This document shows, in pieces, positions 4,037 through 24,954 of a DNA stretch of 24,954 nt; position 1 is the stretch's first letter, and every line of letters starts with the position of its first letter. A program made the position numbers and the translations under genes. Source of the DNA: a virus; the IMG/VR virus record IMGVR_UViG_3300009151_005351, positions 1-24,954 of that record; one strand, written 5' to 3'. The notes below the pieces were generated by a model. It had not been told where the DNA came from. It was given only the letters and a program-made list of their open reading frames with translations, and ran no database searches.

Positions 4037-7000
4037 ATGATATCTTTCGTAAATTTTTCCGTAAGTTCATCTACCGGATATGTAGGAATAACTCCAATTT
4101 CTTTTTTTCCTACCATATACCCAATTACTAAAGACACAAAAGTTACTTGGTATTTTGGAGATGGATCTTCCAGCTCTTTATTATACCCAACCCACACATA
4201 TTCTTCAGCTGGCTCTTTTCAGGTTAAATTGGTAGCATATAGCCCTAGTGGTGATGCTATGGAATCACAAAGCATCCAAACTATTACGATTACTCTCACT
4301 CTAAATGAATCTATATATTTTGAAAGAGTACCTCCACCCACTCACGCCGGATTTTTAAATGCTTATCCGTTTAAATTGGTTATTACTTCTCCAGACACTA
4401 AAGACCATTTTATACAATTATCAACTTTATTTTCTCGTTCTAGCAATCCAGGTTCTGGTACTAAATGGAATTTTCTCAGACCCGAGACTCGTTTTTATGA
4501 TTTAAATGGAAATCAAATCCAAACCATAAAAACAATAGACACTATATTACACTCTAATTCTGCCGGTAAATTAAATCCTACTGGATCTTATGTCGCCGGA
4601 GTCAGTGGATATGCTGAATTTTATTTCTCGGATGATTTGTATAATATGGATGTAGCGACTTCTTCCTCAGATTATACAACCATCCTGGCTACATTATTAA
4701 CAGATAATTCCAAAGATTATACACTCCAAACTGAATCTTTAAATTTTTTACCCAGCTATGCTAATAGTAAAGCTGTTGCGGTTTGTCCCTATGTCCAGAC
4801 CTGGAAAACTCCTGATATTTTAAAAATAACTGAAAACGGAATCAGAGAACATGCAAATCCTCGTTGGTCTACTTCTAAGGTACCTATTATAGTCAATGCC
4901 ACATATTCTCCGATAACTTTAGAAGATCCGTGGTTATCAGAAAATAATTTTAAATTTCCTTCAGATTCTTCTTATTTTGTTCATAGTTTTCCGTTAAAAA
5001 ACGAAGACAATTTTCCTATAGAAGTGGGTCTAATTGGTTTAAGTGCTGTATTTAATCCAGAACCATATTTTAATTGGACTGATTATTCTAACTACAAAAC
5101 TCCCGGATACTATAAAGGACAATTTGATGCAAACAACGTTAATACTTTAGGGGTTTGTATCACCGCAGCATTAACCGCAGCAATGCCTCCATTGACTGCA
5201 AACTTTTTTAATCCTCTATTATGGCTTTCTAATCCAGAAAATGGCTCTGTAACTGTAGCCCAATACAGTAGAGTCAATTTATTGTCGTCCTTAGTAGTAC
5301 CCCCCATTGTTCAGCAATCCTTTGAAATGCCGGTAGTAACTAGTGGACTGAGTGGTTTTCATGGCATATATAGCATTGCAGCATTACCATACCCATACTA
5401 CCAAGCTTGGATGTTAGACTCTGAACTTAGTTATTTATATAGAATAGATTCTAAAGGAGATATATTAAGTGCTATAGATATAAATGATTTAGTTACCACA
5501 AATTTAGGAATAACCGGAACAACCACATATCCGATAGCAATGAGTTTAGATAGCCAACAAAATATATGGTTAACGTTAAGTGACTCAGTGACATCTATAA
5601 AATTAGATAGTTATGGTAATTTCTTAACAGCCATAAACCCATCTTCATTTGTTTTTTCTTCTTCCAGCAGTTTAAGCAGTTTTGTTCCATGGTTGTGTGC
5701 AGAAAGTTACTTTCCAACATTAACCAGTTTTTTGACTGATGAAATATTCATAGAACCGACATTTTTAGATATTGATATAAATGACAATATTTTCATTTGT
5801 TACTCAAATCCTTTAAGTAGTTTCATTGTTCAATATAAAGCCGATGATTTTTCAGTATTATATGCTATATCTTTACCAGCCTTATCCACTCCTTCAGAGA
5901 TTGTTTGTGACAATAATCGAAATGTTTGGATATCTTTACCGTTTAATCAAGGTGACAACTTAGGTTATATAGAAAGGCGTAATTCTACTTTAACCCTATT
6001 ATCAAGTGCCCCCGGAGGTCTTTCTCGATTTGGGCCTTATCAAGACATTAATAATTTAACTATAGACAATAACCAAAACCTATGGTTTACTCATGATTAT
6101 CGATCTGTATCCAAGATAACAGTAACAAATGATATATCCGGTAACGAATTATATTCGACTCAAACTGTTGAATTGTTTACAACTAATTCATATTTAAACG
6201 CAGACACTCATGTATTAGAGGGCATATGTTCAGATTTGGCTGGTAGAATTTATGTTATTAATTCTATGGAGAATTGTGTATATCTTTTAGACAACAACAG
6301 TGTGTCTATTGTGGATAGTTTTGTTATCAATCCGCAAGGTTTTGTACATTATTTGGATGTAAATAATAAAAATACATTGGCATATGGTAGAGGTAATAAA
6401 TCTTTACAGGCTAATGGAGATTGGTCTGGATTTAGATGGACCAACAAATTTGGCTCAAAGTATCTTTCTTCTATAGAAAAAACCACTAATTATTTTTCTA
6501 TTTCAGGAATATCTCGACCTTTAGATTTTTATGCAGATAATTCTTATGCATATGGATTAACCAAGATAAATGAAGACTTTGATATGGCTTCTTATATGAA
6601 AAAATTAGCTTTTATGCCAATTTTACAAGACTGTCCAGTTTTGTTTGATGATTTTTTTGCTAGTATATTAGGAAATAAATCTGGAGACTTAGGCACAAAT
6701 ATATATGAAAAAATTGCCAATTTTGTCAGTAACAATGTAGACATAGATACCTGCAATATAGATCAGTTATATAGTTTATCTCAGATGGTAGATTTAAACA
6801 CAGATGATTTTTTGTTTACCTATCCTGAGTCTATAAAAAGATTAATGAATTTGATTAGTATCAATCAAAGTAGACTTCGAGGAGCTAAAGATTCGAGAAA
6901 GTATTTTTTTAAAAGTATTCCAGGCCAGCAAATAGAAGCGTTTAACAAAGGTCCTATATATACCTCTTCTATGGGAATATCGGCTGGTGAACTGGTTATA

Positions 7001-7312
7001 TTAAAAAACAAAAGTATAGATGAATACCAACTAATTTACACTGGAAATATTAATAATTTTACTCTTTATTCAACCAATATGTTAGCATCATATATTAATT
7101 TGCCTCTAAATTGGGCAGAATATTATGAATTTTATAAATATATTTCTTTGAGTGAAGGTAAAACTTTAGAAGGGATGATAGATTGGGAGAATCCATTCAC
7201 TACCATTAATTATAAGACTTCCTCCAAAGAAGAATGGCAGGGTAATGAGGGAATATATGAGACTCTATTAACCTATGAATTATACAAAGGATTAAATTTG
7301 TTGAACTATTAA
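4037..7312 (+). CDS. Large baseplate protein with PKD domain, six-bladed NHL-like propeller and wedge-like C-terminus
   Basis: A 1091-aa protein in the slot that T4 gp7 (1032 aa) occupies after gp6. Residues 1-90 form a PKD (Ig-like) domain with WYFGDGSS (38-45) and HTYSSAGSFQVKLVA (53-67). Residues 90-435 are beta-rich and unrecognised. About 440-765 holds six NHL/SMP-30-like repeats with recurring I-x-x-D-x-x-x-N-(I/L/V)-W cores, for example LTIDNNQNLWFT; this reads as a six-bladed propeller. After it comes GDWSGFRWTNKFGSKY (about 794-809) and then an alpha-rich segment with DFDMASYMKKLAF (about 846) and IYEKIANFVSN...DIDTCNIDQLYSL (about 888-915), which I infer to be the wedge-binding part, comparable in position to gp7. 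No signal peptide or membrane segment is visible. The gp7 assignment rests on synteny and length; PKD and propeller calls rest on visible motifs. No Shine-Dalgarno sequence precedes the start, which lies 2 bases after the gp6-like stop. Confidence 0.75.
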   Translation: MISFVNFSVSSSTGYVGITPISFFPTIYPITKDTKVTWYFGDGSSSSLLYPTHTYSSAGSFQVKLVAYSPSGDAMESQSIQTITITLTLNESIYFERVPPPTHAGFLNAYPFKLVITSPDTKDHFIQLSTLFSRSSNPGSGTKWNFLRPETRFYDLNGNQIQTIKTIDTILHSNSAGKLNPTGSYVAGVSGYAEFYFSDDLYNMDVATSSSDYTTILATLLTDNSKDYTLQTESLNFLPSYANSKAVAVCPYVQTWKTPDILKITENGIREHANPRWSTSKVPIIVNATYSPITLEDPWLSENNFKFPSDSSYFVHSFPLKNEDNFPIEVGLIGLSAVFNPEPYFNWTDYSNYKTPGYYKGQFDANNVNTLGVCITAALTAAMPPLTANFFNPLLWLSNPENGSVTVAQYSRVNLLSSLVVPPIVQQSFEMPVVTSGLSGFHGIYSIAALPYPYYQAWMLDSELSYLYRIDSKGDILSAIDINDLVTTNLGITGTTTYPIAMSLDSQQNIWLTLSDSVTSIKLDSYGNFLTAINPSSFVFSSSSSLSSFVPWLCAESYFPTLTSFLTDEIFIEPTFLDIDINDNIFICYSNPLSSFIVQYKADDFSVLYAISLPALSTPSEIVCDNNRNVWISLPFNQGDNLGYIERRNSTLTLLSSAPGGLSRFGPYQDINNLTIDNNQNLWFTHDYRSVSKITVTNDISGNELYSTQTVELFTTNSYLNADTHVLEGICSDLAGRIYVINSMENCVYLLDNNSVSIVDSFVINPQGFVHYLDVNNKNTLAYGRGNKSLQANGDWSGFRWTNKFGSKYLSSIEKTTNYFSISGISRPLDFYADNSYAYGLTKINEDFDMASYMKKLAFMPILQDCPVLFDDFFASILGNKSGDLGTNIYEKIANFVSNNVDIDTCNIDQLYSLSQMVDLNTDDFLFTYPESIKRLMNLISINQSRLRGAKDSRKYFFKSIPGQQIEAFNKGPIYTSSMGISAGELVILKNKSIDEYQLIYTGNINNFTLYSTNMLASYINLPLNWAEYYEFYKYISLSEGKTLEGMIDWENPFTTINYKTSSKEEWQGNEGIYETLLTYELYKGLNLLNY

Positions 7313-7335
7313 ATTTCATTCTAAGTATTATTGCC

Positions 7336-10300
7336 ATGGCAGCTGCTGACTCCGCTTTTTTAATTGAAAAATTAGGTACCTGGCCTACAGAAACCTACAG
7401 AATTTCTCCCAGTTCTCAACTTATAGAACCACGGCTAGGAGAACTTCCGGCAGAGAATTTACTCAGACTCTGCAATGTGCCTATTAATGAAGTAGAAAAT
7501 ATTAATACACTTTATTACAACAAAGCATCTTACTTTTTTTCTAATCAAACTAGTCAATATATAATTAATACTGACGAGGGAGCATCTTTTGTATGGGATT
7601 TATCCAGTCACCGCACAAAATACAATATAGGTCATCAGTTTAATTATTTTTATGTAAATATTAACCCGGGAGCGGAAGCAGCTTTTAAAAGAGAATATGC
7701 ATATTCTCTTTATCCTTCTAGATTATTTCTTAAACCAGTTTCTTTGGTTAAAAATATTAATTCTTGGACGCTAACAACCTCTGCCGTAGTAGCAGATCAT
7801 ACTACGTTTTTTTTCAAATCCTCTGCTTCTGAAGCTCTAGCATATAGTCAACATTATAATTTTTTAAATAGTGGACCCACATTTAGCCCTCTTCCATCTA
7901 CATCAGATACTTCTTATGTTTTTAGTTTAAGCTCCTGTAGACAACGAATCAACTATCCAGTTATTATTTTTTCTCCAATCAACAATCCGTATAAAACAGT
8001 TCGAGCTCTGGAAGACGCTACTATTAATTCTAAAATAAGACCAGATTCTCCGTGTGTAACGTATTCTGTATCGTATTCTGCGTATGACGGTGTTTTGACT
8101 CTCGGGCAAGATCGAGTAGATACTCATCCTGACCGACCCCACTCTTTCAGAAGTTCTTACATTCTCAACAGCCAAAGTTTATCTAGCACCCGACAAGCAT
8201 TTCAACTGCTACAGTTTAGAGCTTTAGGAGATACTACCTCCAATTTAGGCGATGCTAGTAATTGTATACTAAGTGCTGTCATAGATCTATCTTCCTCTAC
8301 TGCTAATTATTATAGCAGGTATCATTATGTTAATAAAACAATATATAGTGATGTGACAGGAACTCCAGGATCTTTCTTAGGGTTAGATTTTATATCAGAC
8401 AGCCCAATTTTATTATATTCTTTAGAAACTGTAAGTTCTACTCTTAGTACTTTTTATATTAATTCTGTTAGTTATAATTTAAACACTCCTATTTTGCCTT
8501 CTATTGCCAATAAGAGTATACAAACAACTACCAAGTATCCACCTCACTATTATTCTTATCAATTATCTTTATCCGCTCCAAAGCTAGGATTTAATAATTT
8601 AACAGATTCTTGTTATTTAACTTTTAGTCTAATTTCATCTGCAGTTTCTGCAAATTCTCAAACGGTTGTTTTATCTTCTTTTATAAGTTCTGACTATGGA
8701 TTATTGAAATATGATCTTAAAAACAATAATGTAAAAGAATATATAAAATATGAATTATTATCAGATTCTTTTTTATTAGATCTAAGTGCTATTAATGTGT
8801 ATTATGGTCCAAATAAAGACACTTATAATTTAAAATTTTCTCCATGGGTTCCAGTATCATCCGGAGCCGACTTAGTAATAGATTATCCCCACACACCTTA
8901 TGGGGAAGCTACACTGGTGTTGAGATCCACTTTAAGTTCTGCTAGTGGTTTTATAACGTCCAAATTACCTACAGTAATAACTATAGCAAAAAACCAAACC
9001 CAAAGTTATACCGGATCACCTATATTTTTAAATCCAATTAATCAGACCGGCACCACTTTTGATGTATCTTGTGATATGTTGACAGCAGCTCCTCAATGGC
9101 CTACTAGAGATTTGAGAAATTCTTATATTACTTGGAGTTATTCACCATCCGGCTTAGGCGCTACTTTAAGTTCTTTAGATCTCAGTGGAAACATTGTCAA
9201 ACCTTTATCAGCCAATGTACCAATTTTATTTTCTCCACAAACATCCTATGTAAGATTTAGTGATTTTGGTTTGAATACCATCACCATTCAATTATCTTCT
9301 CAGAAGTATAATGAAGTAACTACCTTACAATCTAACTCTGCCATTCAAAATCCGTTTGACGAAAAAAGATTTGTTATAGGACCCAGTAAAGCTCTAGATA
9401 ATTTAAACAAAACCCGAACTATAGGTTTAACAGCCTTGGTACCATATCACGGTAAGGTGTATCAATTTCCAACCGGCACCTCATTGTCTTGGTCCTGGAT
9501 ATATGCATTTACATTACAACCAGAACTAACCCCAATTAAGGTATATTACTACGGAAGTGGAGGTTCTCTCACTCCATATAGTTACGGAACCATATTACCA
9601 GCAACTCAACTTAGTTCTATTTTTGTAGAAGTGACTCCTGGATATTCAACACAATTACCAGATGTCAATGATGTGGAATTGGTTTTAACGTGTCATTCAC
9701 AAAATAATTTATTTAAAACTAATTATAGTTTTTATGTAGATGAATTTCCATCTAGGGATCTTTTAAATTCAGACTTTACTGTATCATATACTGGATATAA
9801 CTCTATATCGGCAACTGTATTAGATACTTCTTTGAATCAATACATTTTGACCCGACCAAATGACAATACAAATGTATTTTCTCTGTCTTCTTATAGCACA
9901 TCAGACATATCTCTAAGTACCACTTATGTATGGAGTGTTTCAGACAACACCGGACATACTCAATTAATTTCAGCATTTTACGGCAAACATCCCACTTTAA
10001 ATCTTGCAATTACTTCTACTGATATTAATACCACAACAGTCTCATTATGTGGTTTAAGTGCTTATGCGGTGGGATGGCAAGATCCTAATTTAATAGAAAA
10101 TGTAGATTTTAGACTCCCAGCATATCACAACATAGCAACGACAGTTACAATTTACACACCCAATTCAGCAGAATTTTATACTCCATTAAAATTTATTACA
10201 TATCCAGAGTATTATTGGAGTGGAACAAAGGCAGTTTTATTAAGTGCTAGCAATTATACACTAGCAAGTGCTCCTACAGCATATAATAATAAAAAATCTA

Positions 10301-13152
10301 ATAGTCAAAATTTTTATATTAGTGCCAATAAAATAATGTCAGAGTATGATTATAGTATTGGATCTCAAAAAACCTTTTTAACTACACTAAACTCTCCTTC
10401 TGCAACCTTAATATCTCTACCATATACATCAGAATTTCTCTCAAATAACGGTCTGACAATATCTTTAACTGCATATGGACAGATGTATCCACAGACTACA
10501 CCTTTTCAATATGTTAAACCATCTAGTGTGGGTGGAGAATTGGCGATGTACAATTTCAACCTCACAGCTAGTTCAGTTTTACCATCCACAACTGATGTAA
10601 ATTCTTTTGAAAAAAACCCAACACTAGTAAACTTTAATACAGATGTTCTTTTTTCTTATACTCTAGATTCAACTAAGATAGATTTAGATTATAAGAGATA
10701 TATTTCTTTGACACAATTTATAAGAGCTGCGGATTCTACCTCACCAGTAATTCCAGTTAGTGGAGGAACTGCTACCTATGCTCTTAAAAGTACACTTTGG
10801 CCAGATTCTTATTTAGTAACAGTTCCAGCAACCACCGGAACTCAAACAATTAATTTACAAATAGGAGATCCCTATGAACCTGGTTATCTAACAGAAGAGC
10901 AAATCAACAGATTGAGCATATCTTTATACAGTACTAATATTCCATTCACAATTCCAAGCTCTACCTTCAGTAATTATTCATCCGGAGTTTGGCCACAAGG
11001 AGGTGATTTATGGAATCCAGTATTTAGTCAAAGAATTTATCCATTAAGTGGGGATAATAGATGGAGAACATTCACAGCATTTGCCACCGCAGTATCTCCC
11101 TCTATTTTTGTTTCAAATTTTATATCCATCACCGGAGCTCCAATATCAGTTGCATATACCTCTCCAGCGGAAGTAGATGATAATAATATTCTTTTTTATA
11201 GAACATATTTTGGTGAAAACGCCACAGATGGTGTAATTTCCTACAAAGGAGGATTAGCAGAACACACATACACCCAGCCTGGGACATATTTTATAGATTA
11301 TGAAGCTGTCTATCAAGACGGAGCTACTAAAATAGGCACCTTAGCAGAACCAATCATAATTAAATCCAAATGGTCAGAATATAATCAAACTCATTTAAGA
11401 GATCTTAATGAGGAGATTATAGATTTGCCATGGACTCGAGAGCAAACTCACATCCAACCCAATGAATGGGGAGTAGCAGATATCTTTAACACTTCTTTAA
11501 AAAGATTAAGTGACAATTTGACCAAACTTCAAGACAGCACTCAATCCATCAATAATGATTTTCCTACCGTTTATTACGGATGGCTTGGATGTAATGCTAC
11601 AAAAAAGGGATTTGGTATCCGCTGGCATAACAAATATTTTGGAGGCAAATATTATGCTACTCCATCAACTTTTAGTCATATAAATAAAAATGTTTACAAA
11701 GACAGTACCGTACAATTTTTTAATAACATAATAGATATTTCTTCTTCTGGTGATTATCTATATGTTTTAGATGATTATTTTAATGTTAGAATGTTTTTAA
11801 ATAAAAACTATAAACCACAAGAAATAATATTCACTGATACCCCATCTTTTGTAAATCAATTTGTAAAACCTTCTAATATAGAAGTGGATGAAAATGGAAT
11901 AATGTATATATTAGACCCACCATCTAATAAACTTTATAGTTTAAATATAGACATAGAATCACAAACCATTAATGTATCTATCAATGTCGGAGGATTTGGT
12001 GGACGAAACGATTCTAGTAGATTTTCTGCTCCATCTGATTTATCTTTGTCTGAAAACAATGTATTTGTTTTAGATTATAATAATAAATGTGTCAAAGAGT
12101 TTACTAGTGATCTAAATTGGATTCATACCTATTACACAGAAAAATTTGAAACTGATAGACCAGAATATCTAGCCACTCATTTTGATGGAATGTGTTATAC
12201 TGTTTCAGAAAACCATAATTTGTATGTTTTTGATATATCATCTCCTTCTCCTCTATATATCACTTCTTTAAAAGAAATTAGTACATACTATCCAAACTCA
12301 GTTATAACTAAAATGACTCTGGATGAAGCTGGTGAATTTTTATACATCATTGCTTCTAATGGTAGAACTGGTTTATTATTCAAGTACAGTGCTCTTGGAG
12401 TATATATAGGAACTTCTCCCCTTGCCTACAATCCATTAACAATTAAAAAATCTTCTTATCGCAATTTACTGATGGCTATTCCACAAGCCATTGTAAAAAT
12501 TCAAGATGTAGTAGATTTATTCCGTATAGGACAAGGTTTACCTACAAATATGTGGTCTGAAGAACAAATATTGTTAAAAAAAGACGATTTTGCTTCTGAT
12601 ATTTCTTACAATAGATGTTTGAAGAGAATTTCTCAGAATATAAAAACTTTCAGAAATAATCTCAATGGAAAATTTTCAAAAGTTACAGAAAGGCTTTCAG
12701 TTGGAATAGTTACCTATTATGCCCAGATACCTGTATCAATTGAAGAACAACCATCTTTACACAAAGATGTAGAGAAAGATACAGTCTCTGTAGGTGTAAA
12801 TGAATTTCACCTTCCTCAAATTTTAAATAGAGAAATAGACAAAATTTACGACTCTATATTGTCTATCAAACAATTTTTAGATATTTATGCCCTTTCCTTA
12901 CCAGACTTTAAAGTAGAAGGATCTGGAGTATCTGTAATATGTCCTCAGGGATTCTGTTGGTCTTGGAATGCTATGTCTTGTTACAATCTATCCCTACCAT
13001 CCATAAGAATATGTAATGTAAATCCCATTACCTATCGAGAATTAGAATCTTCTTTTCCTATAAATTATGATTCCAGTGAAGGATGGACTAAAACCTGGGA
13101 CAATGCTAGTTCAGATTGCTGTAACAGCACACCCAATCCCTTGGACGAATAA
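7336..13152 (+). CDS. Giant tail/baseplate protein with Ig-like repeats, PKD-like domain and NHL-like propeller
   Basis: A 1938-aa protein, the longest in the window. Residues 1-1280 are almost all alternating beta-strand sequence rich in Ser, Thr, Tyr, Asn and Pro, compatible with a chain of Ig-like sandwiches, but I recognise no named family there. A PKD-like domain lies at about 1288-1345, ending in HTYTQPGTYFIDYEAVY. A helical element (1366-1400) follows, then GFGIRWHNKYFGGKY (about 1426-1440). About six NHL-like repeats at 1467-1730 have P-S-(N/D)-(I/L) and D-x-x-G-x-(M/L)-Y cores. A second copy of the helical element starts at residue 1740. The C-terminal 80 residues are Cys-rich (CPQGFCWSWNAMSC, later DCC), which is unusual for a virion protein. 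The domain content overlaps that of the preceding 1091-aa protein, suggesting partners or paralogues on the baseplate rim. The ATG has a GCCATGGC context without a Shine-Dalgarno sequence. Confidence 0.7.
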   Translation: MAAADSAFLIEKLGTWPTETYRISPSSQLIEPRLGELPAENLLRLCNVPINEVENINTLYYNKASYFFSNQTSQYIINTDEGASFVWDLSSHRTKYNIGHQFNYFYVNINPGAEAAFKREYAYSLYPSRLFLKPVSLVKNINSWTLTTSAVVADHTTFFFKSSASEALAYSQHYNFLNSGPTFSPLPSTSDTSYVFSLSSCRQRINYPVIIFSPINNPYKTVRALEDATINSKIRPDSPCVTYSVSYSAYDGVLTLGQDRVDTHPDRPHSFRSSYILNSQSLSSTRQAFQLLQFRALGDTTSNLGDASNCILSAVIDLSSSTANYYSRYHYVNKTIYSDVTGTPGSFLGLDFISDSPILLYSLETVSSTLSTFYINSVSYNLNTPILPSIANKSIQTTTKYPPHYYSYQLSLSAPKLGFNNLTDSCYLTFSLISSAVSANSQTVVLSSFISSDYGLLKYDLKNNNVKEYIKYELLSDSFLLDLSAINVYYGPNKDTYNLKFSPWVPVSSGADLVIDYPHTPYGEATLVLRSTLSSASGFITSKLPTVITIAKNQTQSYTGSPIFLNPINQTGTTFDVSCDMLTAAPQWPTRDLRNSYITWSYSPSGLGATLSSLDLSGNIVKPLSANVPILFSPQTSYVRFSDFGLNTITIQLSSQKYNEVTTLQSNSAIQNPFDEKRFVIGPSKALDNLNKTRTIGLTALVPYHGKVYQFPTGTSLSWSWIYAFTLQPELTPIKVYYYGSGGSLTPYSYGTILPATQLSSIFVEVTPGYSTQLPDVNDVELVLTCHSQNNLFKTNYSFYVDEFPSRDLLNSDFTVSYTGYNSISATVLDTSLNQYILTRPNDNTNVFSLSSYSTSDISLSTTYVWSVSDNTGHTQLISAFYGKHPTLNLAITSTDINTTTVSLCGLSAYAVGWQDPNLIENVDFRLPAYHNIATTVTIYTPNSAEFYTPLKFITYPEYYWSGTKAVLLSASNYTLASAPTAYNNKKSNSQNFYISANKIMSEYDYSIGSQKTFLTTLNSPSATLISLPYTSEFLSNNGLTISLTAYGQMYPQTTPFQYVKPSSVGGELAMYNFNLTASSVLPSTTDVNSFEKNPTLVNFNTDVLFSYTLDSTKIDLDYKRYISLTQFIRAADSTSPVIPVSGGTATYALKSTLWPDSYLVTVPATTGTQTINLQIGDPYEPGYLTEEQINRLSISLYSTNIPFTIPSSTFSNYSSGVWPQGGDLWNPVFSQRIYPLSGDNRWRTFTAFATAVSPSIFVSNFISITGAPISVAYTSPAEVDDNNILFYRTYFGENATDGVISYKGGLAEHTYTQPGTYFIDYEAVYQDGATKIGTLAEPIIIKSKWSEYNQTHLRDLNEEIIDLPWTREQTHIQPNEWGVADIFNTSLKRLSDNLTKLQDSTQSINNDFPTVYYGWLGCNATKKGFGIRWHNKYFGGKYYATPSTFSHINKNVYKDSTVQFFNNIIDISSSGDYLYVLDDYFNVRMFLNKNYKPQEIIFTDTPSFVNQFVKPSNIEVDENGIMYILDPPSNKLYSLNIDIESQTINVSINVGGFGGRNDSSRFSAPSDLSLSENNVFVLDYNNKCVKEFTSDLNWIHTYYTEKFETDRPEYLATHFDGMCYTVSENHNLYVFDISSPSPLYITSLKEISTYYPNSVITKMTLDEAGEFLYIIASNGRTGLLFKYSALGVYIGTSPLAYNPLTIKKSSYRNLLMAIPQAIVKIQDVVDLFRIGQGLPTNMWSEEQILLKKDDFASDISYNRCLKRISQNIKTFRNNLNGKFSKVTERLSVGIVTYYAQIPVSIEEQPSLHKDVEKDTVSVGVNEFHLPQILNREIDKIYDSILSIKQFLDIYALSLPDFKVEGSGVSVICPQGFCWSWNAMSCYNLSLPSIRICNVNPITYRELESSFPINYDSSEGWTKTWDNASSDCCNSTPNPLDE

Positions 13153-13178
13153 GGTAAATATTACATCCCACATTTGTT

Positions 13179-15650: not shown

Positions 15651-15659
15651 AAATAATTT

Positions 15660-17191: not shown

Positions 17192-17202
17192 GTATAAACA
17201 AG

Positions 17203-20200
17203 ATGGCCATCACATGCGAAGACATTCGGATCACAGACCTATGTAGAGCTGATCACTTAGTTAATAGTGATTTGTTATTAGCTGCTACCAATTTCTCTAC
17301 TCAAGCAAGCACCCAAGCTGTCTCCGCTTGTGTTGTATTAAATTATATAACTGACAGATCCGCATACAGACTTGATAATCAGTGCAGTATTGTACCATCT
17401 AATCCCTTGGTTGGCCAAAGCTATAACAACACCATCACTCTTTCTAAATATTCCAATATAGCCAGTGGTTTGAGTAATCGTATCGATGCAGCTGGAGATG
17501 GTGGTGGATCTGCTATCGGTTCTGGTTGTTGTAATTACGTAGGAGATGATTTATCTGTTATTGGAGGAGGAGAACAAAATTCTGTAGATGCTTGTGCATC
17601 AGCTATTGTTGCTGGGGCTTATAACGGTTCTACCGGTATATACGACTTCATCGGTGCTGGTGTGTATAACAAAGTCACTCTTCCAAAATCTTCTATTGTT
17701 GGTGGAGAAGGTAACCAAGTTAATGCTACTAAGAGTTTTATTGGAGGAGGACAGGGCAATTTAGTAAAATCTAATTATTCTTCCATTGTAGGAGGTTATA
17801 GTGGAATAGTAGATAGTCCATACTCCACCATTGTAGGTGGAAGCAATAATATAACTTGTGGAGATCACAATTTTATAGGATCTGGTACTTGTAATCAAAT
17901 AGACGGAGAGCATTCTTCTGTGAATGGAGGCTCTTACAACATAGTTAATTCCAGTTATGCGTCAATTGTTGGAGGTAACCTAAATAGAACTAATGCAAAT
18001 CATAACTTTATAGGTGCTGGAGTAAATAACACCACTAACCAAAATTGTGCTTCTATAGTTGGTGGTGAAGATAATTTTGTAAATGGAGAAATCAGTTCTA
18101 TCTTAGGTGGATATAGTAATGTAATTAGTGCTAGTGGATCCTCTATTGCCGGTGGATGTTGTAATAATGTTTCTGGAGAGTTTACTTCTATGGGAGCTGG
18201 TGCATGTAATGTCGCTAGTGGAGATTTTGCTTCTATAGTGGGAGGCAAAACTAATTCTTTATCCGGAAATTATGCTTCAATTCTTGGTGGTGAATTAAAT
18301 AAAGTAGTTTGTGATCATTCTATCATAGCTGGAGGATATAACAATTGTGTCTCAGATTGTTTATCGTTTATAGGAGGAGGCCAAAGTAATTTTTCTAGTA
18401 ATACTCACACCGTTATAGATGGAGGATTTTGCAATACAATCAGTGGAGAGAGATCTTCTATTGTAGGAGGTTATTGCAACAACATTTCTGGCAGCAATGA
18501 TTTTATTGCTGGTGGAGGACGCAATATTGTAAAATCTAATTTTTCTTCCATAGTCGGTGGATTTAGTAGTTCTGTATTAAGTGGAGATTGTTCTTTAATT
18601 GTTGGTGGTGAATGTAATGTAATTACAGCCGGAGGTTCTTCTATTGTCGGCGGCATAAACAACCAAATTAACGGCTGCAACTCTGTTATTGGTGGAGGCT
18701 GTTGCAATTTAGTACAAACTTATCATTCTTCTATTGTCGGTGGTTATAGTGGTTCTGTATTTGGAGCTCATTCTACAGTGGTCGGTGGATGTAAAAACGT
18801 TGTTAATGGATGCAAGTCTGTGATCACTGGTGGTGCTTTAAATAACGTTCTAGGAAATGATAGTTTTATAGGTTCTGGTGAAATTAATAAAGTTGATGCA
18901 GATTATTCTTCTATTGTTGGTGGTGTTTCAAATACAGTCTCTGGCACCAAATCTGATATTGTTGGCGGAGAGTTTAATAAAGTTCAATCTAACTATTCTT
19001 CTATTGTTGGTGGATATAGTGGTTCTATATTAAGTGGTGATTATTCTTTAATTGCTGGTGGATGTTGCAATACAATCAGCGCAGACAGTTCTTTAATTGC
19101 TGGAGGAGTTTGTAATACCGTTAGTGGGTCTAAATCTAATATTCAAGGAGGACAATTTAATACAGTTAAAACCAATTATTCTTCGGTAGCTGGTGGATAT
19201 AGTGGTTCTGTATTGACTGGAGATTGTTCTTTGATTGCTGGAGGTTCTGCTAACACCATCAAAGGAAGTGGTTCTTTAATTGCTGGAGGAGTTTGTAATA
19301 CAGTTAGTGGAACCAAATCTAATATCGGTGGTGGTGAGTGTAATGCTGTTGGATCTAATTTTTCTTCTGTGGTTGGAGGCTTTAAAGATACTATAACAGC
19401 GGGAGATTATTCTTTAATCGCCGGTGGAGCTTGCAATAATATTAACGGAACAAAATCTGTTGTTGCCGGGGGAGAATGTAATATTGTTAAAAGTAATTAC
19501 TCCTCTATTGTCGGTGGTTATAGCAGTTCTGTATTGACTGGGGATTATTCTTCCATTAATGGAGGACTTTGCAACGTAGTGTCAGGAACTAGATCTCAAA
19601 TAGGTACCGGTGAATGTAATACAGTTAAAACCAACTACTCCTCTGTGGTCGGTGGTTATAGCAGTTCTATATTAACCGGAGATCATTCCACTATTGTAGG
19701 CGGATGTAGTAACGTAATCAGTGCTAGCGGTTCTTCTATCGTCGGAGGATTTAATAATTCTGTAAATTCTCTTGGTGGATTTTCTTTAATTGCAGGTGGG
19801 TGTAGTAATGTCGTTAGTGCTAGTGGATCCTTAATTGCTGGTGGTATTTCTAATAAAGTTAGTGGAGATAAATCTAATATTATTGGAGGAGAATGTAATA
19901 TTGTCAAAACTAATCACTCTTCCATAGTTGGTGGTTACAGTAGTTGTGTAGCAACTGGAGATTGTTCTGTAATTGTTGGAGGTTTTAGTAACTCAATCAG
20001 TGCTAGTGGTTCTTTAATTGCTTCAGGAGGACTTAATATAGTTAAAACTAATTATTCTTCCATTGTTGGAGGATATAGTGGCTCTGTATTGACTGGTGAT
20101 TATTCTTTAGTTGCTGGTGGATGTAGTAATGTAGTTAGTGCTAGTGCATCTTCTGTAGTAGGAGGATTTTCTAACACGGTTAAAACCAATTATTCTTCCA

Positions 20201-22611
20201 TTGTTGGAGGATATAGTGGCTCTGTATTGACTGGTGATTATTCTTCCATTGTTGGAGGTTGTAGTAATGTGATTAGTGCTAGTGCATCTTCTGTAGTAGG
20301 AGGATTTTCTAACACGGTTAAAACCAATTATTCTTCTATTGTTGGTGGATATAGCAGCTCTATACTAACCGGAGACCATTCTTCCATTGTTGGAGGTTGT
20401 AGTAATGTGATTAGTGCTAGTGGTTCTTCTATTGCTGGTGGTATTTGCAATAATATTACGGGTTATAAATCCTCTATTGTAGGCGGAGAGTGTAATATTG
20501 TCAAATCTGGATATTCCTCCATTGTTGGAGGTTATAGTAGTTCTCTTGTAGCCGGAAATTACTCTTCTATTATTGGAGGATGTTGTAATATGCTTAGTGC
20601 TACTGGTTCCACCATAGTTGGAGGTACTAACAACACTCTTAAATCTGACAATTCTTATATAGCTGGTGGCAATAATAACAATTCTACCAATTATTCAAAC
20701 ACTTTTATTTTAGGAAGCAATGTTACGGCTACTTGTTCAAATTATACTTATGTCAATAATTTATCTGCAGTTTCAGACATTACCGCAGTAATTGTAAATG
20801 GCAGAACTTTATTATCTTCTCCAAGTGCTGTTATAACTAATATAACTGCTAGTAGTGCAGTTAGAATTGGTTCTTTCATAACCGCTCCTAGTGGTTATTT
20901 TATAGATACTACTGTAGATAATGTGTTATATGGTAACATAGTTCGAGCTTCCACAGTATTTAAATCTCCAAGTGCTTCAATAGTATGTGCAGTCATTGAC
21001 GATACCATCAAGGTTTGCACTCTTTTAAGAGCAGCTAGTGCTTCTATAGGAAATGCCGCAGTAGATAATGTGTTATATGGTAACACAGTTTGTGCTTCCA
21101 CGGTATTTAAGTCTCCAAGTGCTTCTATTTATAATGCCACAGTAGACGACACTCTTAAGGTTTGTACTCTCCTTAGAGCAGCTAGTGCTTCTATAGGAAA
21201 TGCCGCAGTAGATAATGTGTTATATGGTAACACAGTTTGTGCTTCCACTGTATTTAAGTCTCCTAGTGCTTCTATCGTATGTGCTGTTATAGACGACACC
21301 CTTAAGGTTTGCACTCTTTTAAGAGCTGCTAGTGCTTCTATAGGAAATGTTACTATAGACAACACATTATACGGTAACACAGTTTGTGCTTCTACTGTAT
21401 TTAAGTCTCCAAGTGCTTCAATCACTGCCGTAACAATTACAAGTGCTCAGTTTTCAAATGTATCTATTAACAACACCTTACTAGGAAATACTATATGTGC
21501 TTCCACAGTATTTAAGTCACCCAGTGCTTCTATAGATTATATAACTGTAAATTTTGATCTTACTAGCAATAATATAACCAGCCAAAACAACTTAATAGGT
21601 AAAACAATATATTCTAGTTATATCAACAACAGTAACAGAATAAATTCACCTATAATCAACGCCACCACTCAAATATTAAGTGCTGGTACAGACATTGCGT
21701 CTTTGTTTCTTAAAGCCGGTAGTGTTGATGAAGGATTTTCTACAACTTTATACCCTTACAAAGCACCTAATTTTATCTCTTATACAGTTTCCAATAACTC
21801 AACAACAACCTTTGTTCTTCCTGGAAATCTTTTTGTAGGAACACTGGCTAATGATTATATAGTCTTCATAGACGGGATACATCAAAAACCATCCATTAAT
21901 TACACTGTAGATGGAGTATATGGGTTGATAACCACTTCCACAGTTCCTTTAAGTTCTAAAGTTAATATTTTCTCTTATGATTATAGTGGTAACTATTCTC
22001 TAAGACCTAATATACAAACATTCACCAGTAACGGAATTACCTCTTTGTTTAATCTTAGTATATTATCTTCTACTTATAATCTAGAAAATACTCGTTATTT
22101 TGTATTTGTAAATGGAATTATACAACAACCTGGCATCGATTTTGTTATTAACTCCATTGGTGGTAGATCCATTCAATTTACAACTCCCCCTCCCACAATA
22201 GGAGGTTTAAATGGAACTATAGTAGTTTATGAATATTTGTACGGATCTCTTGGAATAACTCAACCAGATTTCTTATCTTTCACCGGCAATGGTTCAACTT
22301 CAGCTTTCAATGTTAGTACTTCTTATATCAGTCCATCTGCAACCAACTATCTCATATCTCTGGGTGGTGTTGTTCAACGACCAGAAATAGATTATGTAGT
22401 AAATTCTGTTAACAATGGAACTATTCAATTTACAACCCCACCTCCATTAAATGCCAATGCTGGAGTATATTATTTTAAATTTGGTAATTATAACAGCAAT
22501 CTTAATATTGTAAATATAATCTCCAAAACCACTCCAATGACTGCTACAGGTGATTTTATATCTTTAGTAATAAATGGAAATCAAAAATATATTCGTCTCT
22601 GGGAAGGTTAA
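17203..22611 (+). CDS. Giant tail fibre/adhesin with YadA-head-like beta-roll
   Basis: An 1802-aa fibre. Residues 1-85 form a non-repetitive N-terminus that likely anchors to the tail. From about 85 to 1165 the chain is a near-continuous series of 15-16 residue coils of the form S-S-I-V-G-G-x-x-N-x-V-x-(S/T)-x-x, resembling the left-handed beta-roll of YadA-type trimeric adhesin heads and similar phage-fibre repeats. Cysteines recur at fixed coil positions (GGCCN, GGECN, GGVCN). The run ends with a capping-like segment FILGSNVTATCSNYTYVNNL. A second block (about 1238-1440) has 49-residue repeats with F-K-S-P-S-A-S-I and D-N-V-L-Y-G-N-T. The C-terminus (about 1524-1760) has three domains with (V/I)-x-(F/L)-(V/I/G)-(N/D/G)-G-(I/V)-x-Q-x-P-x-(I)-(D/N)-(F/Y), known from marine phage structural proteins. 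The ATG (AAGATGGCC) lacks a Shine-Dalgarno sequence. Function is inferred as long tail fibre and host binding. Confidence 0.82.
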   Translation: MAITCEDIRITDLCRADHLVNSDLLLAATNFSTQASTQAVSACVVLNYITDRSAYRLDNQCSIVPSNPLVGQSYNNTITLSKYSNIASGLSNRIDAAGDGGGSAIGSGCCNYVGDDLSVIGGGEQNSVDACASAIVAGAYNGSTGIYDFIGAGVYNKVTLPKSSIVGGEGNQVNATKSFIGGGQGNLVKSNYSSIVGGYSGIVDSPYSTIVGGSNNITCGDHNFIGSGTCNQIDGEHSSVNGGSYNIVNSSYASIVGGNLNRTNANHNFIGAGVNNTTNQNCASIVGGEDNFVNGEISSILGGYSNVISASGSSIAGGCCNNVSGEFTSMGAGACNVASGDFASIVGGKTNSLSGNYASILGGELNKVVCDHSIIAGGYNNCVSDCLSFIGGGQSNFSSNTHTVIDGGFCNTISGERSSIVGGYCNNISGSNDFIAGGGRNIVKSNFSSIVGGFSSSVLSGDCSLIVGGECNVITAGGSSIVGGINNQINGCNSVIGGGCCNLVQTYHSSIVGGYSGSVFGAHSTVVGGCKNVVNGCKSVITGGALNNVLGNDSFIGSGEINKVDADYSSIVGGVSNTVSGTKSDIVGGEFNKVQSNYSSIVGGYSGSILSGDYSLIAGGCCNTISADSSLIAGGVCNTVSGSKSNIQGGQFNTVKTNYSSVAGGYSGSVLTGDCSLIAGGSANTIKGSGSLIAGGVCNTVSGTKSNIGGGECNAVGSNFSSVVGGFKDTITAGDYSLIAGGACNNINGTKSVVAGGECNIVKSNYSSIVGGYSSSVLTGDYSSINGGLCNVVSGTRSQIGTGECNTVKTNYSSVVGGYSSSILTGDHSTIVGGCSNVISASGSSIVGGFNNSVNSLGGFSLIAGGCSNVVSASGSLIAGGISNKVSGDKSNIIGGECNIVKTNHSSIVGGYSSCVATGDCSVIVGGFSNSISASGSLIASGGLNIVKTNYSSIVGGYSGSVLTGDYSLVAGGCSNVVSASASSVVGGFSNTVKTNYSSIVGGYSGSVLTGDYSSIVGGCSNVISASASSVVGGFSNTVKTNYSSIVGGYSSSILTGDHSSIVGGCSNVISASGSSIAGGICNNITGYKSSIVGGECNIVKSGYSSIVGGYSSSLVAGNYSSIIGGCCNMLSATGSTIVGGTNNTLKSDNSYIAGGNNNNSTNYSNTFILGSNVTATCSNYTYVNNLSAVSDITAVIVNGRTLLSSPSAVITNITASSAVRIGSFITAPSGYFIDTTVDNVLYGNIVRASTVFKSPSASIVCAVIDDTIKVCTLLRAASASIGNAAVDNVLYGNTVCASTVFKSPSASIYNATVDDTLKVCTLLRAASASIGNAAVDNVLYGNTVCASTVFKSPSASIVCAVIDDTLKVCTLLRAASASIGNVTIDNTLYGNTVCASTVFKSPSASITAVTITSAQFSNVSINNTLLGNTICASTVFKSPSASIDYITVNFDLTSNNITSQNNLIGKTIYSSYINNSNRINSPIINATTQILSAGTDIASLFLKAGSVDEGFSTTLYPYKAPNFISYTVSNNSTTTFVLPGNLFVGTLANDYIVFIDGIHQKPSINYTVDGVYGLITTSTVPLSSKVNIFSYDYSGNYSLRPNIQTFTSNGITSLFNLSILSSTYNLENTRYFVFVNGIIQQPGIDFVINSIGGRSIQFTTPPPTIGGLNGTIVVYEYLYGSLGITQPDFLSFTGNGSTSAFNVSTSYISPSATNYLISLGGVVQRPEIDYVVNSVNNGTIQFTTPPPLNANAGVYYFKFGNYNSNLNIVNIISKTTPMTATGDFISLVINGNQKYIRLWEG
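17461..20700 (+). repeat. Beta-roll coding region, about 45-48 bp coils
   Basis: The DNA encodes dozens of consecutive coils of about 15-16 residues, each with a core like TCTATTGTTGGTGG (S-I-V-G-G). Coils are grouped into higher-order units of three (about 46 residues): one containing K-T-N-Y-S-S-I-V-G-G-Y-S, one containing L-T-G-D-Y-S, and one containing S-A-S-G-S-S. Similarity is mostly at protein level in the first half and becomes strong at DNA level toward 19000-20500, suggesting that the distal half expanded more recently. No stop or frameshift interrupts the array. Confidence 0.85.
20050..20336 (+). repeat. Near-identical 138-bp tandem units
   Basis: Two offset exact matches show a fresh tandem duplication with a 138-bp period (46 codons). 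Bases 20050-20107 equal 20188-20245 (58 of 58), and 20135-20198 equal 20273-20336 (64 of 64). Third positions are identical across the copies, which cannot be explained by protein constraint alone, so the copies are recent or homogenised by recombination. The unit equals three beta-roll coils, so gain or loss keeps both frame and fold. Confidence 0.9.
20914..21465 (+). repeat. 147-bp direct repeats in the fibre neck
   Basis: Copies start at 20914, 21061, 21208 and 21355 (spacing exactly 147 bp, 49 codons); the last unit is shortened to 111 bp. Bases 21028-21101 match 21175-21248 without a mismatch (74 bases). Each unit encodes D-N-x-L-Y-G-N-T, then S-T-V-F-K-S-P-S-A-S-I, then D-D-T-(I/L)-K-V-C-T-L-L-R-A-A-S-A-S-I. 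It lies between the beta-roll and the C-terminal domains and probably forms a stalk. Confidence 0.9.
21766..22485 (+). repeat. Three C-terminal beta-domain repeats of the giant fibre
   Basis: Three domains of about 70 residues each begin with a F-T-x-N-G-x-T-S-x-F-like strand and carry VFIDGIHQKPSINYTV (about 21856-21911), VFVNGIIQQPGIDFVI (about 22102-22149) and ISLGGVVQRPEIDYVV (about 22351-22400). Two of them then have I-Q-F-T-T-P-P-P. They are diverged at DNA level, unlike the 138- and 147-bp repeats, so this is an older duplication. Similar N-G-x-x-Q-x-P-x-x-D-Y modules are frequent in marine phage virion proteins, where they probably decorate the fibre. Confidence 0.75.
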
Positions 22612-22624
22612 CAAAATTTAAATT

Positions 22625-24954
22625 ATGAGTTTGCAAATATTATCTCAACCACAACTAGTCCAGAACTCATTTTCTGTTAATGGAGTATTAAGTGCTACTA
22701 CAGCAGTATTTAATTCTATCAGTGCTAATTACATATACGCTGGCGGCTCTAATATTTTAGGGTTAAGTGGAGGTGGAGGAGGAGGTGGTAATGATCCTAC
22801 TAAATTACCATTGACTGGTGGAACTATTACTGGAGATTTAACCATTGTAGGAACTCTTTTTGTTAATTCTTTAAGTGCTAGTGGAGTTTTATATGGTGAT
22901 GGAAGTAAATTCACTTTTAATAACGGTCTGACTGTAAATACTTTTACATCCGCAGTTTCTTTAAGTGCTCAATCTGGTGTATTTTCTACTGGAAATATGC
23001 TTCTTGGTCAAAATGAAGGAGGATCTTATTTTGGCAGAACGGAAATTAAAGAATCTCAGTTATACACAAATAATAATAACATTAAATGGAACATGGTAGA
23101 CTCTAATCTTAGAGATTACATTGCATTTGCAATGTCATCTGATGGACAATATCAAACGGCATTAACTACTTCATATGGTATATTCAGATCAACAGATTAT
23201 GGAGTTACTTGGAATAATGTAGATTCCAATGTTAGAACTTATAGAGGAATATCAATGTCTCTAGATGGAAAATACCAAACAGCAGTGGTTTATTCTATTA
23301 ATGCAGTTTTTGGATCTCAGACTATATATAGGTCAACTAATTATGGAGCTACGTGGACCATGATCAGTGATGATTTTGGAAGACGCTATACTAGCGTAGC
23401 TATGTCTTCTGATGGAAGAATACAAACATTAGCATTATATAATGATACTGCTGGAGGTATATTCAGATCAACCGATTATGGAGTAACTTATAGTCCAGTA
23501 GATAATAATACTAGAAATTACCTCTCAATAGGAATGTCTTCTGATGGTAAATATCAAACCGCAGTCTGTAATGGTGGAGCTGTGGGTAATAGAGGTATAT
23601 TTAGATCAACGGATTATGGTGTTACTTGGAATAACGTAGATTCCAATTCTAGAAATTATAAAGCAATATCAATGTCATCCGATGGCAAATATCAACTTGC
23701 GGTTGGAGGTGTTTATGCTGGGTTTAGATCTACAAATTATGGATTAACATGGACTGACATATCAATATCAGGAGCATTTGAGGCAAATTATAATGCAGCA
23801 GCAGTTTCGTCAAATGGTAAAATTCAGTTGGTTATGGCAGGAAATGGAGTTGCCATGTCACCAGATTATGGTGCAACGTGGAGCATTGTATATCCTCTTT
23901 ATAATGGTACTGGTATTGGAATGTCTTCTGATGCAAAAATGCAGATTGCGGTTACTAATGGATCAGGACTATTTAGATGTGTATTAGATTCAGTTTTAGA
24001 AGGTAATTTAACAGTTACCTCTTCTGTTTCTGCTCCAGCTTTAAGTGGAACTCATTACGGTGACGGAGGTAATCTAAGTGGAGTAATTAAAACTCAGTAT
24101 ACTCCACCAGCCAATGCTACTTTTACTTCTTCAGTTTCTGCACCAGCTTTAAGTGGAACTCATTATGGTGATGGAAGTAAGCTAACTGGTATAGCTGGAA
24201 CATATACCCCACCAGCCAATGCTACTTTTACTTCTAGTGTTTCTGCTCCAGCATTAAGTGGAACTTTTTACGGTGACGGAAGTAAGCTAACTGGTATAGC
24301 TGGAACATATACCCCACCAGCCAATGCTACTTTTACTTCTTCAGTTTCTGCACCAGCTTTAAGTGGAACTCATTATGGTGATGGAAGTAAGCTAACTTTC
24401 ACCAACATTCAAGCCCGGGACGCCTCCACCAATTATCCTATTGGAGGTATTACTTTCAGTAATGGTTTTGTCTCCTTAAGTGCTAGTAGCTTTAGTCAAA
24501 TAATAACTTTTGACAATGGAGGAATCCGGCCCAAAGTAACTATATACGGAACAGTTTCTGCTCTGTCTTTAAGTGGTATACATTATGGTGACGGTAATAA
24601 TTTAAGCTTCTCTAACATTCAAGCACGAGATATTTTGTCAGGGCTTCCGAACGGTGGAATTACTTTTGGTTCTAATAGTATTACCTTGAGTACAACTAAT
24701 ACCCAAGTAATGGGTATAGATACCACTTCTTTTACTAAGGCAACTATATACGGATCAGTTTCTGCTCAGTCTTTAAGTGGTACATTTTATGGAGACGGAA
24801 GTAATTTATTAAATTTAAAAATAACTACAGTTGTAAATGGAAGCAAGTCTGGTACATACACATTAGCTCTTGCTGATGCTGGTTCTGTTGTCTCATTTAA
24901 TTCAACCAGTTCTAATATTTGCCAAATTCCAGCAAATTCTGTAGTTCCTTTTGC
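22625..24954 (+). CDS. Tail fibre with seven-bladed Asp-box (BNR) propeller, 3' end outside window
   Basis: An open frame of 776 codons with no stop before the window edge. The ATG lies 13 bases after the previous stop, without a Shine-Dalgarno sequence. The N-terminus has fibre modules (FSVNGVLSATTAVF), a run of seven glycines (residues 49-55) as a hinge, and LPLTGGTITGDLTIVGTL (about 60-78), a module common in phage fibres. Residues about 150-450 contain seven repeats, each with an S-S-D-G-K-Y-Q-like strand, and six with an Asp-box, F-R-S-T-D-Y-G-V-T-W; the first strand (KWNMVDSN) can complete the last blade. This predicts a closed seven-bladed sialidase/sortilin-like propeller. I see no evidence for sialidase catalytic residues, so binding is more likely than hydrolysis. 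Afterwards come 35-residue repeats with S-V-S-A-P-A-L-S-G-T-x-Y-G-D-G-S-K-L, then two copies of a 70-residue unit with N-I-Q-A-R-D and G-G-I-T-F, and the beginning of a terminal domain (DAGSVVSFNS, IPANSVVPF) like those of many fibre tips. Confidence 0.82.
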   Translation, partial: MSLQILSQPQLVQNSFSVNGVLSATTAVFNSISANYIYAGGSNILGLSGGGGGGGNDPTKLPLTGGTITGDLTIVGTLFVNSLSASGVLYGDGSKFTFNNGLTVNTFTSAVSLSAQSGVFSTGNMLLGQNEGGSYFGRTEIKESQLYTNNNNIKWNMVDSNLRDYIAFAMSSDGQYQTALTTSYGIFRSTDYGVTWNNVDSNVRTYRGISMSLDGKYQTAVVYSINAVFGSQTIYRSTNYGATWTMISDDFGRRYTSVAMSSDGRIQTLALYNDTAGGIFRSTDYGVTYSPVDNNTRNYLSIGMSSDGKYQTAVCNGGAVGNRGIFRSTDYGVTWNNVDSNSRNYKAISMSSDGKYQLAVGGVYAGFRSTNYGLTWTDISISGAFEANYNAAAVSSNGKIQLVMAGNGVAMSPDYGATWSIVYPLYNGTGIGMSSDAKMQIAVTNGSGLFRCVLDSVLEGNLTVTSSVSAPALSGTHYGDGGNLSGVIKTQYTPPANATFTSSVSAPALSGTHYGDGSKLTGIAGTYTPPANATFTSSVSAPALSGTFYGDGSKLTGIAGTYTPPANATFTSSVSAPALSGTHYGDGSKLTFTNIQARDASTNYPIGGITFSNGFVSLSASSFSQIITFDNGGIRPKVTIYGTVSALSLSGIHYGDGNNLSFSNIQARDILSGLPNGGITFGSNSITLSTTNTQVMGIDTTSFTKATIYGSVSAQSLSGTFYGDGSNLLNLKITTVVNGSKSGTYTLALADAGSVVSFNSTSSNICQIPANSVVPF
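24104..24397 (+). repeat. 105-bp direct repeats in the last fibre
   Basis: Three units with a 105-bp period (35 codons) encode S-V-S-A-P-A-L-S-G-T-(H/F)-Y-G-D-G-S-K-L-T followed by a P-P-A-N-A-T-F-T linker. The first and third are identical over 84 bases (24104-24187 = 24314-24397), while neighbouring units share 63 exact bases (24173-24235 = 24278-24340). Further diverged copies follow, and the N-I-Q-A-R-D motif recurs 210 bases apart (24407 and 24617), twice the basic period. Confidence 0.9.

Follow-up and report, generated by a model that had tools for sequence, protein, structure and literature searches.

An uncultured lineage of T4-like phages probably uses beta-propellers in two ways, as fixed parts of the baseplate and as swappable modules of its fibres. 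The window analyzed here is the whole of a 24,954-base virus record; it carries a clamp-loader gene, genes for gp25-like and gp6-like wedge proteins, and, following these, the large tail genes P0005 to P0011. The gp25 and gp6 homologues are adjacent, the arrangement of a T4-like baseplate wedge, and in tblastn searches at 1e-5 the gp6 homologue (P0004) matched 654 phage records, with cyanophage gp6 among the best; it also matched 45 loci in viral contigs. Two close sisters were found, a 131.5-kb record (G001; loci L002, L047, and L065) and a 26.8-kb record (G002; loci L048 and L064). Their P0003 to P0006, P0008, and P0009 are 92-97% identical to those of the window, and their P0007 is 92-93% identical. 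A pattern search of genome contigs for the C-terminal part of P0006, as a link to a host, found nothing. Between the clamp-loader and gp25 genes lies P0002 (1127-1705, minus strand), a conserved gene on the opposite strand for which Pfam and PHROG gave no match at the limits used. The original prediction had placed four propellers in P0005, P0006, P0007, and the last fibre, and all four were recovered in those reading frames, two by structural model and profile and two by family score. The features discussed below are as follows.

1742..2272, plus strand: P0003, gp25-like baseplate wedge (PF04965, 37.9 bits against a cut-off of 27.2; phrog_261, 1.7e-19)
2265..4034, plus strand: P0004, gp6-like baseplate wedge (phrog_219, 5e-45)
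4037..7312, plus strand: P0005, 1091 aa, following gp6, with a PKD domain, a propeller, and a helical domain (PKD, 34.5 bits against a cut-off of 23.5; AlphaFold2 model)
5207..6433, plus strand: P0005 propeller, residues ~391-799, seven-bladed by model (profile match and AlphaFold2 model)
7336..13152, plus strand: P0006, 1938 aa, two separate genes in some relatives (comparison with relatives)
11566..12507, plus strand: six-bladed NHL-type propeller of P0006, residues ~1411-1724 (profile and model)
13179..15650, plus strand: P0007, 823-aa fibre ending in RCC1 repeats (PF00415; phrog_4219, 1.6e-30)
13179..13388, plus strand: conserved anchor at the N terminus of P0007, residues 1-70 (present at 79 loci)
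14295..15647, plus strand: RCC1 propeller end of P0007, residues ~373-823 (Pfam, PDB similarity, and repeat motifs)
17203..22611, plus strand: P0010, 1802-aa fibre with a long YadA-like beta-roll repeat (PF21300, 65.4 bits against a cut-off of 30)
22625..24954, plus strand: P0011, the last fibre, at least 776 aa, running off the window (reading frame; Pfam)
22625..22735, plus strand: P0011 anchor, residues 1-37 (36/37 identical in the sister locus L064)
22892..23065, plus strand: upstream linker of the Asp-box cassette (46/58 identical to a different fibre of the sister G001)
23081..23986, plus strand: seven-bladed Asp-box propeller of P0011, residues ~153-454 (BNR_6 and Sortilin-Vps10 over cut-off; repeat count)
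23987..24085, plus strand: downstream linker of the Asp-box cassette (25/33 identical to the same G001 fibre)

P0007 ends in an RCC1 domain, as had been predicted (PF00415, 71.5 bits against a cut-off of 21.7). RCC1 propellers are a fold known from eukaryotic regulators, and among PDB entries the RCC1 part of P0007 resembles HERC2 and UVR8. Eight loose RCC1 motifs give seven or eight blades by sequence, and WD40_RLD scores 145.8 bits, just below its cut-off of 150. Among the 79 loci that carry the P0007 anchor, 65 sit close behind the C-terminal part of P0006. Complete proteins with this anchor range from 86 to 1428 aa and have many different ends: when 19 of them were searched against Pfam, seven showed RCC1, one showed the Peptidase_S74 chaperone, and 11 showed nothing over cut-off. 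A model made from eight proteins, the window's included, called RCC1 at 17 of the 79 anchor loci, and seven of these 17 were confirmed by Pfam outside the window and its sisters. Stand-alone RCC1 proteins that lack the P0007 anchor also occur in relatives (L168:4865-9124, 1419 aa with 26 repeat matches; L169:1577-4744, 1055 aa with 21), and their arrays hold repeats enough for three or more propellers.

The history of the RCC1 end was read on a tree of the neighboring P0006 part, comprising 46 non-redundant rows plus the window after near-copies had been dropped. It is a quick tree (LG+G4, SH-aLRT support only) in which one row is very long, and it excludes the 14 of 79 anchor loci without a complete upstream P0006 part. 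Sorted by the end carried at the P0007 position, the 47 rows divide into 10 with RCC1, 18 with another end, 7 short, and 12 cut off. RCC1 is clustered on this tree: the label needs three changes, the minimum forced by the starred branches, against a mean of 9.3 for shuffled labels, and 0 of 500 shuffles gave a value as low. The three changes may represent one gain and two losses. RCC1 ends occur in three tree groups, with protein lengths of 823-933, 1023-1260, and 1336-1396 aa, and these groups differ in the number of beta-roll motifs as well. When the window is compared with its two sisters, identity reaches 93-95% in the RCC1 end, above the 88% of the stalk; together with the clustering on the tree, this implies that exchange is slow in the window's own group. 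The neighboring fibre P0010 differs in length within the same trio, 1802 aa in the window against 1404 and 1349 aa in the sisters.

The last fibre, P0011, bears an Asp-box propeller (BNR_6, PF15899, 45.5 bits against a cut-off of 27). Its six Asp boxes and seven SSDG-type strands fit the seven blades originally predicted, and the Asp-box pattern matched seven times (once off register), whereas 2000 shuffles gave 0.31 matches on average and never more than 3. Instead of forming the tip, this propeller lies inside the shaft, at residues ~153-454 of at least 776. The sister locus L064 keeps the P0011 anchor and the later shaft repeats and has no Asp-box region, and at the corresponding place L065 has two other proteins, one of 181 aa and a Laminin-G-like one of 713 aa. 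Further along G001, two proteins bear Asp-box propellers: a 1430-aa fibre whose anchor is a different one, and a 471-aa protein that ends in S74. Another such propeller occurs in the more distant relative G014, in a protein of 1255 aa. Compared with the window, the 1430-aa fibre is 79% (46/58) and 76% (25/33) identical in the two linkers and 40% (120/297) identical in the propeller, the trace that head exchange, or fast divergence, between recombination joints would leave. The L064 contig ends 94 residues into a fibre with the second anchor of G001. Among the matches listed, the shift of an Asp-box propeller between fibre genes is seen in one phage pair only, the P0011 anchor only in the L064 record, and the cassette linker at full length only in G001, with weak partial matches in G002; 10 chosen records were inspected. 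When viral contigs were scanned with the window sequence alone, no Asp-box relative was returned; this method misses relatives at the 40% level, since the sister copies surfaced only in the family search, and the result does not speak for absence. P0011 had no match at 1e-5 in 50,697 phage records. In a set of 31 records chosen by hand (from among the larger ones, plus the 26.8-kb sister, with known RCC1 carriers included, so that the counts are not frequencies), RCC1 occurs in 14 (control, 0/14) and Asp-box in 2 (control, 4/14).

Several other features of these fibre regions were observed. The shaft repeats of P0011 resemble the Chlorovirus glycoprotein repeat (PF06598) at 18.2 bits, below the cut-off of 27, and the L064 counterpart (L064:18091-20838) scores 40.5 bits with the same family. 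A further large protein with a Laminin-G domain lies beyond the fibres in G001 (1181 aa) and in G014 (loci L165:5440-8985 and L166:1522-5037); it shows weak BLAST similarity to the P0005 propeller, and a propeller model found nothing in the G001 protein. A family 8 glycosyltransferase-like gene (L065:20957-22171) lies amid the fibre genes of the sister.

By sequence, the nearest PDB relatives of the P0011 Asp-box propeller are xyloglucanases (2cn3, 6e-12), which raises the question of whether the Asp-box and RCC1 propellers are enzymes, acting as glycan-cleaving spikes, instead of binding heads. The best stretch of that match covers 91 of 311 residues, however, and the Pfam list of P0011 contains no glycoside hydrolase family. 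Glycoside hydrolases of family GH74 combine two propellers with catalytic residues; by repeat count, P0011 has one. One Asp-box protein of a sister does end in the endosialidase chaperone domain, and endosialidases of phages have trimeric propellers on a stem, as is noted in the accessible part of the phi11 paper (PMC4901313). On balance we consider an enzymatic role unlikely. The same source describes a propeller placed mid-fibre, between the stem and the C-terminal part, in the phi11 receptor-binding protein Gp45, the position that the propeller occupies in P0011. This likeness is one of architecture; going by that text, the Gp45 propeller is five-bladed, its stem is helical, and phi11 is a siphophage. 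The eBAP3 fibres of eCIS, as described in the available portion of the report on them (PMC12923769), likewise are modular and include propeller lectins; unlike the fibres of the window, they belong to bacterial toxin-delivery particles and have collagen-like shafts.

We favor the reading in which the RCC1 and Asp-box propellers would be heads that bind the host surface, probably its glycans. P0007 and P0011, presumably trimers, each consist of a conserved anchor with variable modules beyond it, the modules at such places being RCC1, Asp-box, Laminin-G-like, YadA-like, chaperone-ended, and unknown modules. Heads could then be exchanged by recombination within the anchors, the repeats of the stalk, and the linkers, all of them conserved, and the target of adsorption would change with them. 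The original prediction took all the propellers to be exchangeable heads; for RCC1 and Asp-box it holds up to the extent that they stand at fibre places where relatives carry other modules.

P0005 was predicted to contain a six-bladed NHL-like propeller. In Pfam this part gives Reg_prop only, under cut-off, and no NHL (PF01436) row appears up to an E value of 1, but a 38-member profile matches PknD and the designed NHL propellers of the Pizza series (Pizza6 scoring best, 4e-11), and the AlphaFold2 model (pLDDT 78.8, pTM 0.70) has a closed propeller at residues ~391-799. The strands of the model form six full four-stranded blades and a seventh that is closed by N-terminal strands, and for this reason we read the propeller as seven-bladed; the prediction of a propeller thus holds and differs from the model by one blade. 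The best match of the model is the YVTN propeller 1l0q (Z 30.7, rmsd 2.4, 284 residues aligned), which heads the aligned chains together with LST8 and 7bid. The last of these is seven-bladed by its title, and 1l0q and LST8 we take to be seven-bladed as well; the Foldseek list also contains six-bladed NHL folds. For P0006, the NHL (PF01436) score is 15.5 bits against a cut-off of 20, the profile matches NHLRC2 at 9e-8, and the model (pLDDT 78.8, pTM 0.74) matches the NHL domain of TRIM71 (Z 26.2, rmsd 2.4, 249 aligned). Judged by the model, the P0006 propeller is six-bladed and of NHL-type build, though below the formal family score. Single-chain structure prediction therefore bore out the expectation of closed propellers in both proteins, and in P0006 that of an NHL-like one. 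In the relatives L021 and L034, P0006 is divided into two genes near residue 1232.

In most relatives examined, gp25 and gp6 are followed by P0005 and P0006 in that order; L008 has two extra genes between P0005 and P0006, and L016, L058, and L061 have no recognizable P0006 beside P0005 within the available stretch. Homologues were picked by their helical C-terminal part, with C-terminal models made from alignments of propeller-bearing members, and a frame truncated at its start was scored as having the propeller if the propeller was still present in it; the window is included in the counts. Before near-copies were removed, 101 P0005 homologues had the propeller, 1 lacked it, and 7 were cut by contig ends, and the corresponding figures for P0006 were 100, 0, and 3. 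In the non-redundant sets the numbers with, without, and cut are 44, 1, and 4 for P0005 and 44, 0, and 1 for P0006, so that the propeller is kept in 44/45 and 44/44 judgeable homologues, respectively. The lone propeller-free homologue (L038:3535-5265) has its N-terminal part joined directly to the helical part. Its relative L037 (L037:3338-7396), 41% and 51% identical to it over the N-terminal and helical parts, has ~745 residues between them. The P0005 propeller is therefore a near-constant insert and not an absolute need. Between the sisters and the window, the P0005 propeller is 97% identical, compared with 95-97% in other parts of the protein, and the P0006 propeller is 95% identical, compared with 92-98%; at this distance both propellers change about as fast as the remainder of their proteins. 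When distant relatives are compared, the propeller ranks last in conservation among the four parts of P0006 that were measured (median identity 0.353; the other three, 0.379-0.526), and the medians for P0005 are 0.394 for the propeller, 0.326 for PKD, 0.396 for the C-terminal part, 0.418 for the mid part, and 0.455 for the helical part. Such low identities speak against any special sequence constraint on the two fixed propellers. Two observations concern insertion sites in P0005: L038 set against L037 provides a natural empty site for the propeller, and the homologues in L027 (2036 aa) and L034 (1405 aa) are each lengthened by an insertion several hundred residues long, at the same C-terminal site near query residues 1003-1026.

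It is improbable that the four propellers together form a collection of exchangeable binding heads, as was first proposed. Four propellers of at least three repeat families do lie in one gene run, a propeller-free P0005 exists, and the P0006 propeller is the part of its protein least conserved over distant relatives, but almost every judgeable P0005 homologue and every judgeable P0006 homologue retains its propeller, and in the sisters these propellers evolve like the rest of their proteins; for these two the proposal is not supported. Their lower conservation among distant relatives, as far as identities can tell, may still leave some room for a role at the surface.

The propellers of P0005 and P0006 are instead near-constant parts of two large proteins encoded after gp25-gp6. 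At a threshold of 0.01, P0005 and P0006 matched nothing in the 50,697 phage records; comparison of P0005, P0006, P0008, and P0009 with the S-SRM01 proteins, and of P0005 and P0006 with part of the giant P-RSM4 protein, gave nothing significant; and hhalign of P0005 with T4 gp7 gave an E value of 0.2 over 21 columns, which is not significant. The term "baseplate protein" accordingly rests on gene position and conservation, from which we infer that both belong to the baseplate. Their propellers are perhaps baseplate architecture, which might provide a structural or docking platform for fibres. The nozzle of SU10 offers a precedent, in that, according to the consulted part of its description (PMC9509320), a seven-bladed propeller carries short fibres. 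The likeness to P0005 and P0006 would be one of architecture, a propeller built permanently into the tail to which fibres dock; SU10, as that source has it, has a short, non-contractile tail. The jumbo phage CBB has Kelch propeller repeat proteins, one of them in the virion (PMC5259590); they belong to another repeat family than those of the window, and the portion of that paper available to us describes no stalk swap. RCC1 and Asp-box propellers had been called unusual in phage fibres, and although propellers in phage tails thus have published precedents, RCC1 is indeed rare by this query, P0007 matching 21 of the 50,697 phage records.

The neighborhoods of the RCC1 genes were inspected in nine of these 21 records (S-SRM01, LIBA6276, BUCT-ZZ01, SeaP2/3/4, Jenst, Yong-DA, and a Helicobacter prophage). 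In S-SRM01 and LIBA6276 the RCC1 gene adjoins annotated tail-fibre genes and in BUCT-ZZ01 it is one gene away; in Yong-DA it sits among polysaccharide genes, which, like the stand-alone RCC1 arrays in two relatives of the window, speaks against a fibre reading. Jenst points neither way, and the Helicobacter prophage carries no annotation. In the Pseudomonas protegens phage Ppr_SeaP4 the RCC1 protein itself has tail-fibre matches: PHROGs annotated "tail fiber protein" (down to 3.3e-31) and one annotated "tail fiber assembly" (1.6e-68) align with its N-terminal part; the T7 tail-fibre domain scores 23.3 bits, just below the Pfam cut-off of 25.2. The same protein matches phrog_4219 from residue 1 (847.8 bits; the best stretch spans residues 1-607 of 863), and its residues 405-860 match phrog_20500, "tail protein." The fibres of Ppr_SeaP2, -3, and -4 are 97% identical over alignment columns 1-350, and beyond column 350 that of SeaP4 is 37.4% identical to SeaP2 and 38.0% to SeaP3, while SeaP2 and SeaP3 agree at 91% of positions in their RCC1 parts. 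On either side the three phages are nearly the same: the last 638 residues of the upstream gene product are identical at 637 of 638 positions, and those of an endonuclease a few genes downstream of the fibre at 593 of 595. A conserved N-terminal part with a divergent RCC1 part is the pattern expected of a receptor-binding end, as judged from these alignments, and it suggests that the RCC1 proteins of phages, which are classed with DNA metabolism, can form the ends of fibres. In this pattern the SeaP fibres resemble P0007; they differ from it in their anchor, with its T7-type domain just under the Pfam cut-off, and in genome type. The SeaP phage paper, in the section available, mentions a "tail protein" of Ppr_SeaP2 without naming its gene (PMC11888443), and the open-access literature searched did not name RCC1 as a phage fibre head.

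That the RCC1 domain marks a DNA-condensing or packaging protein, as was suspected, to go by the accessible text, for the RCC1 proteins of phAPEC6 (PMC7247149) and W70 (PMC11370258) and as the match of P0007 to phrog_4219, filed under DNA, RNA and nucleotide metabolism, might suggest, is very improbable, because RCC1 is here fused behind a conserved anchor and stalk beside baseplate genes, the phrog_4219 protein of SeaP4 also matches tail-fibre PHROGs and phrog_20500, and it is in the RCC1 part that the SeaP phages, nearly identical elsewhere, diverge. The RCC1-type proteins of W70 were found in the virion by mass spectrometry and, as far as the same text goes, are of 40-43 kDa, whereas in P0007 RCC1 is the end of an 823-aa protein with anchor and stalk.

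Returning to RCC1 as a fibre head, we lean slightly towards a broader claim, to be taken as a whole: that RCC1 is a general class of swappable head across unrelated phages, from this T4-like lineage to T7-like Pseudomonas phages, that the phage families labeled "regulator of chromosome condensation" are at least in part tail-fibre adhesins, and that Asp-box is a rarer head moving from one fibre gene to another inside conserved linkers. Modular phage adhesins are already known, and the RCC1 proteins of phages have so far been suspected of condensing DNA. Should they prove to be adhesin heads, a class of host-range determinants that has been misfiled would become visible, and the three sister SeaP phages on a laboratory Pseudomonas strain form a ready test system. 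The split between fixed and swappable propellers, for its part, warns against equating every propeller in a phage tail with a binding head.
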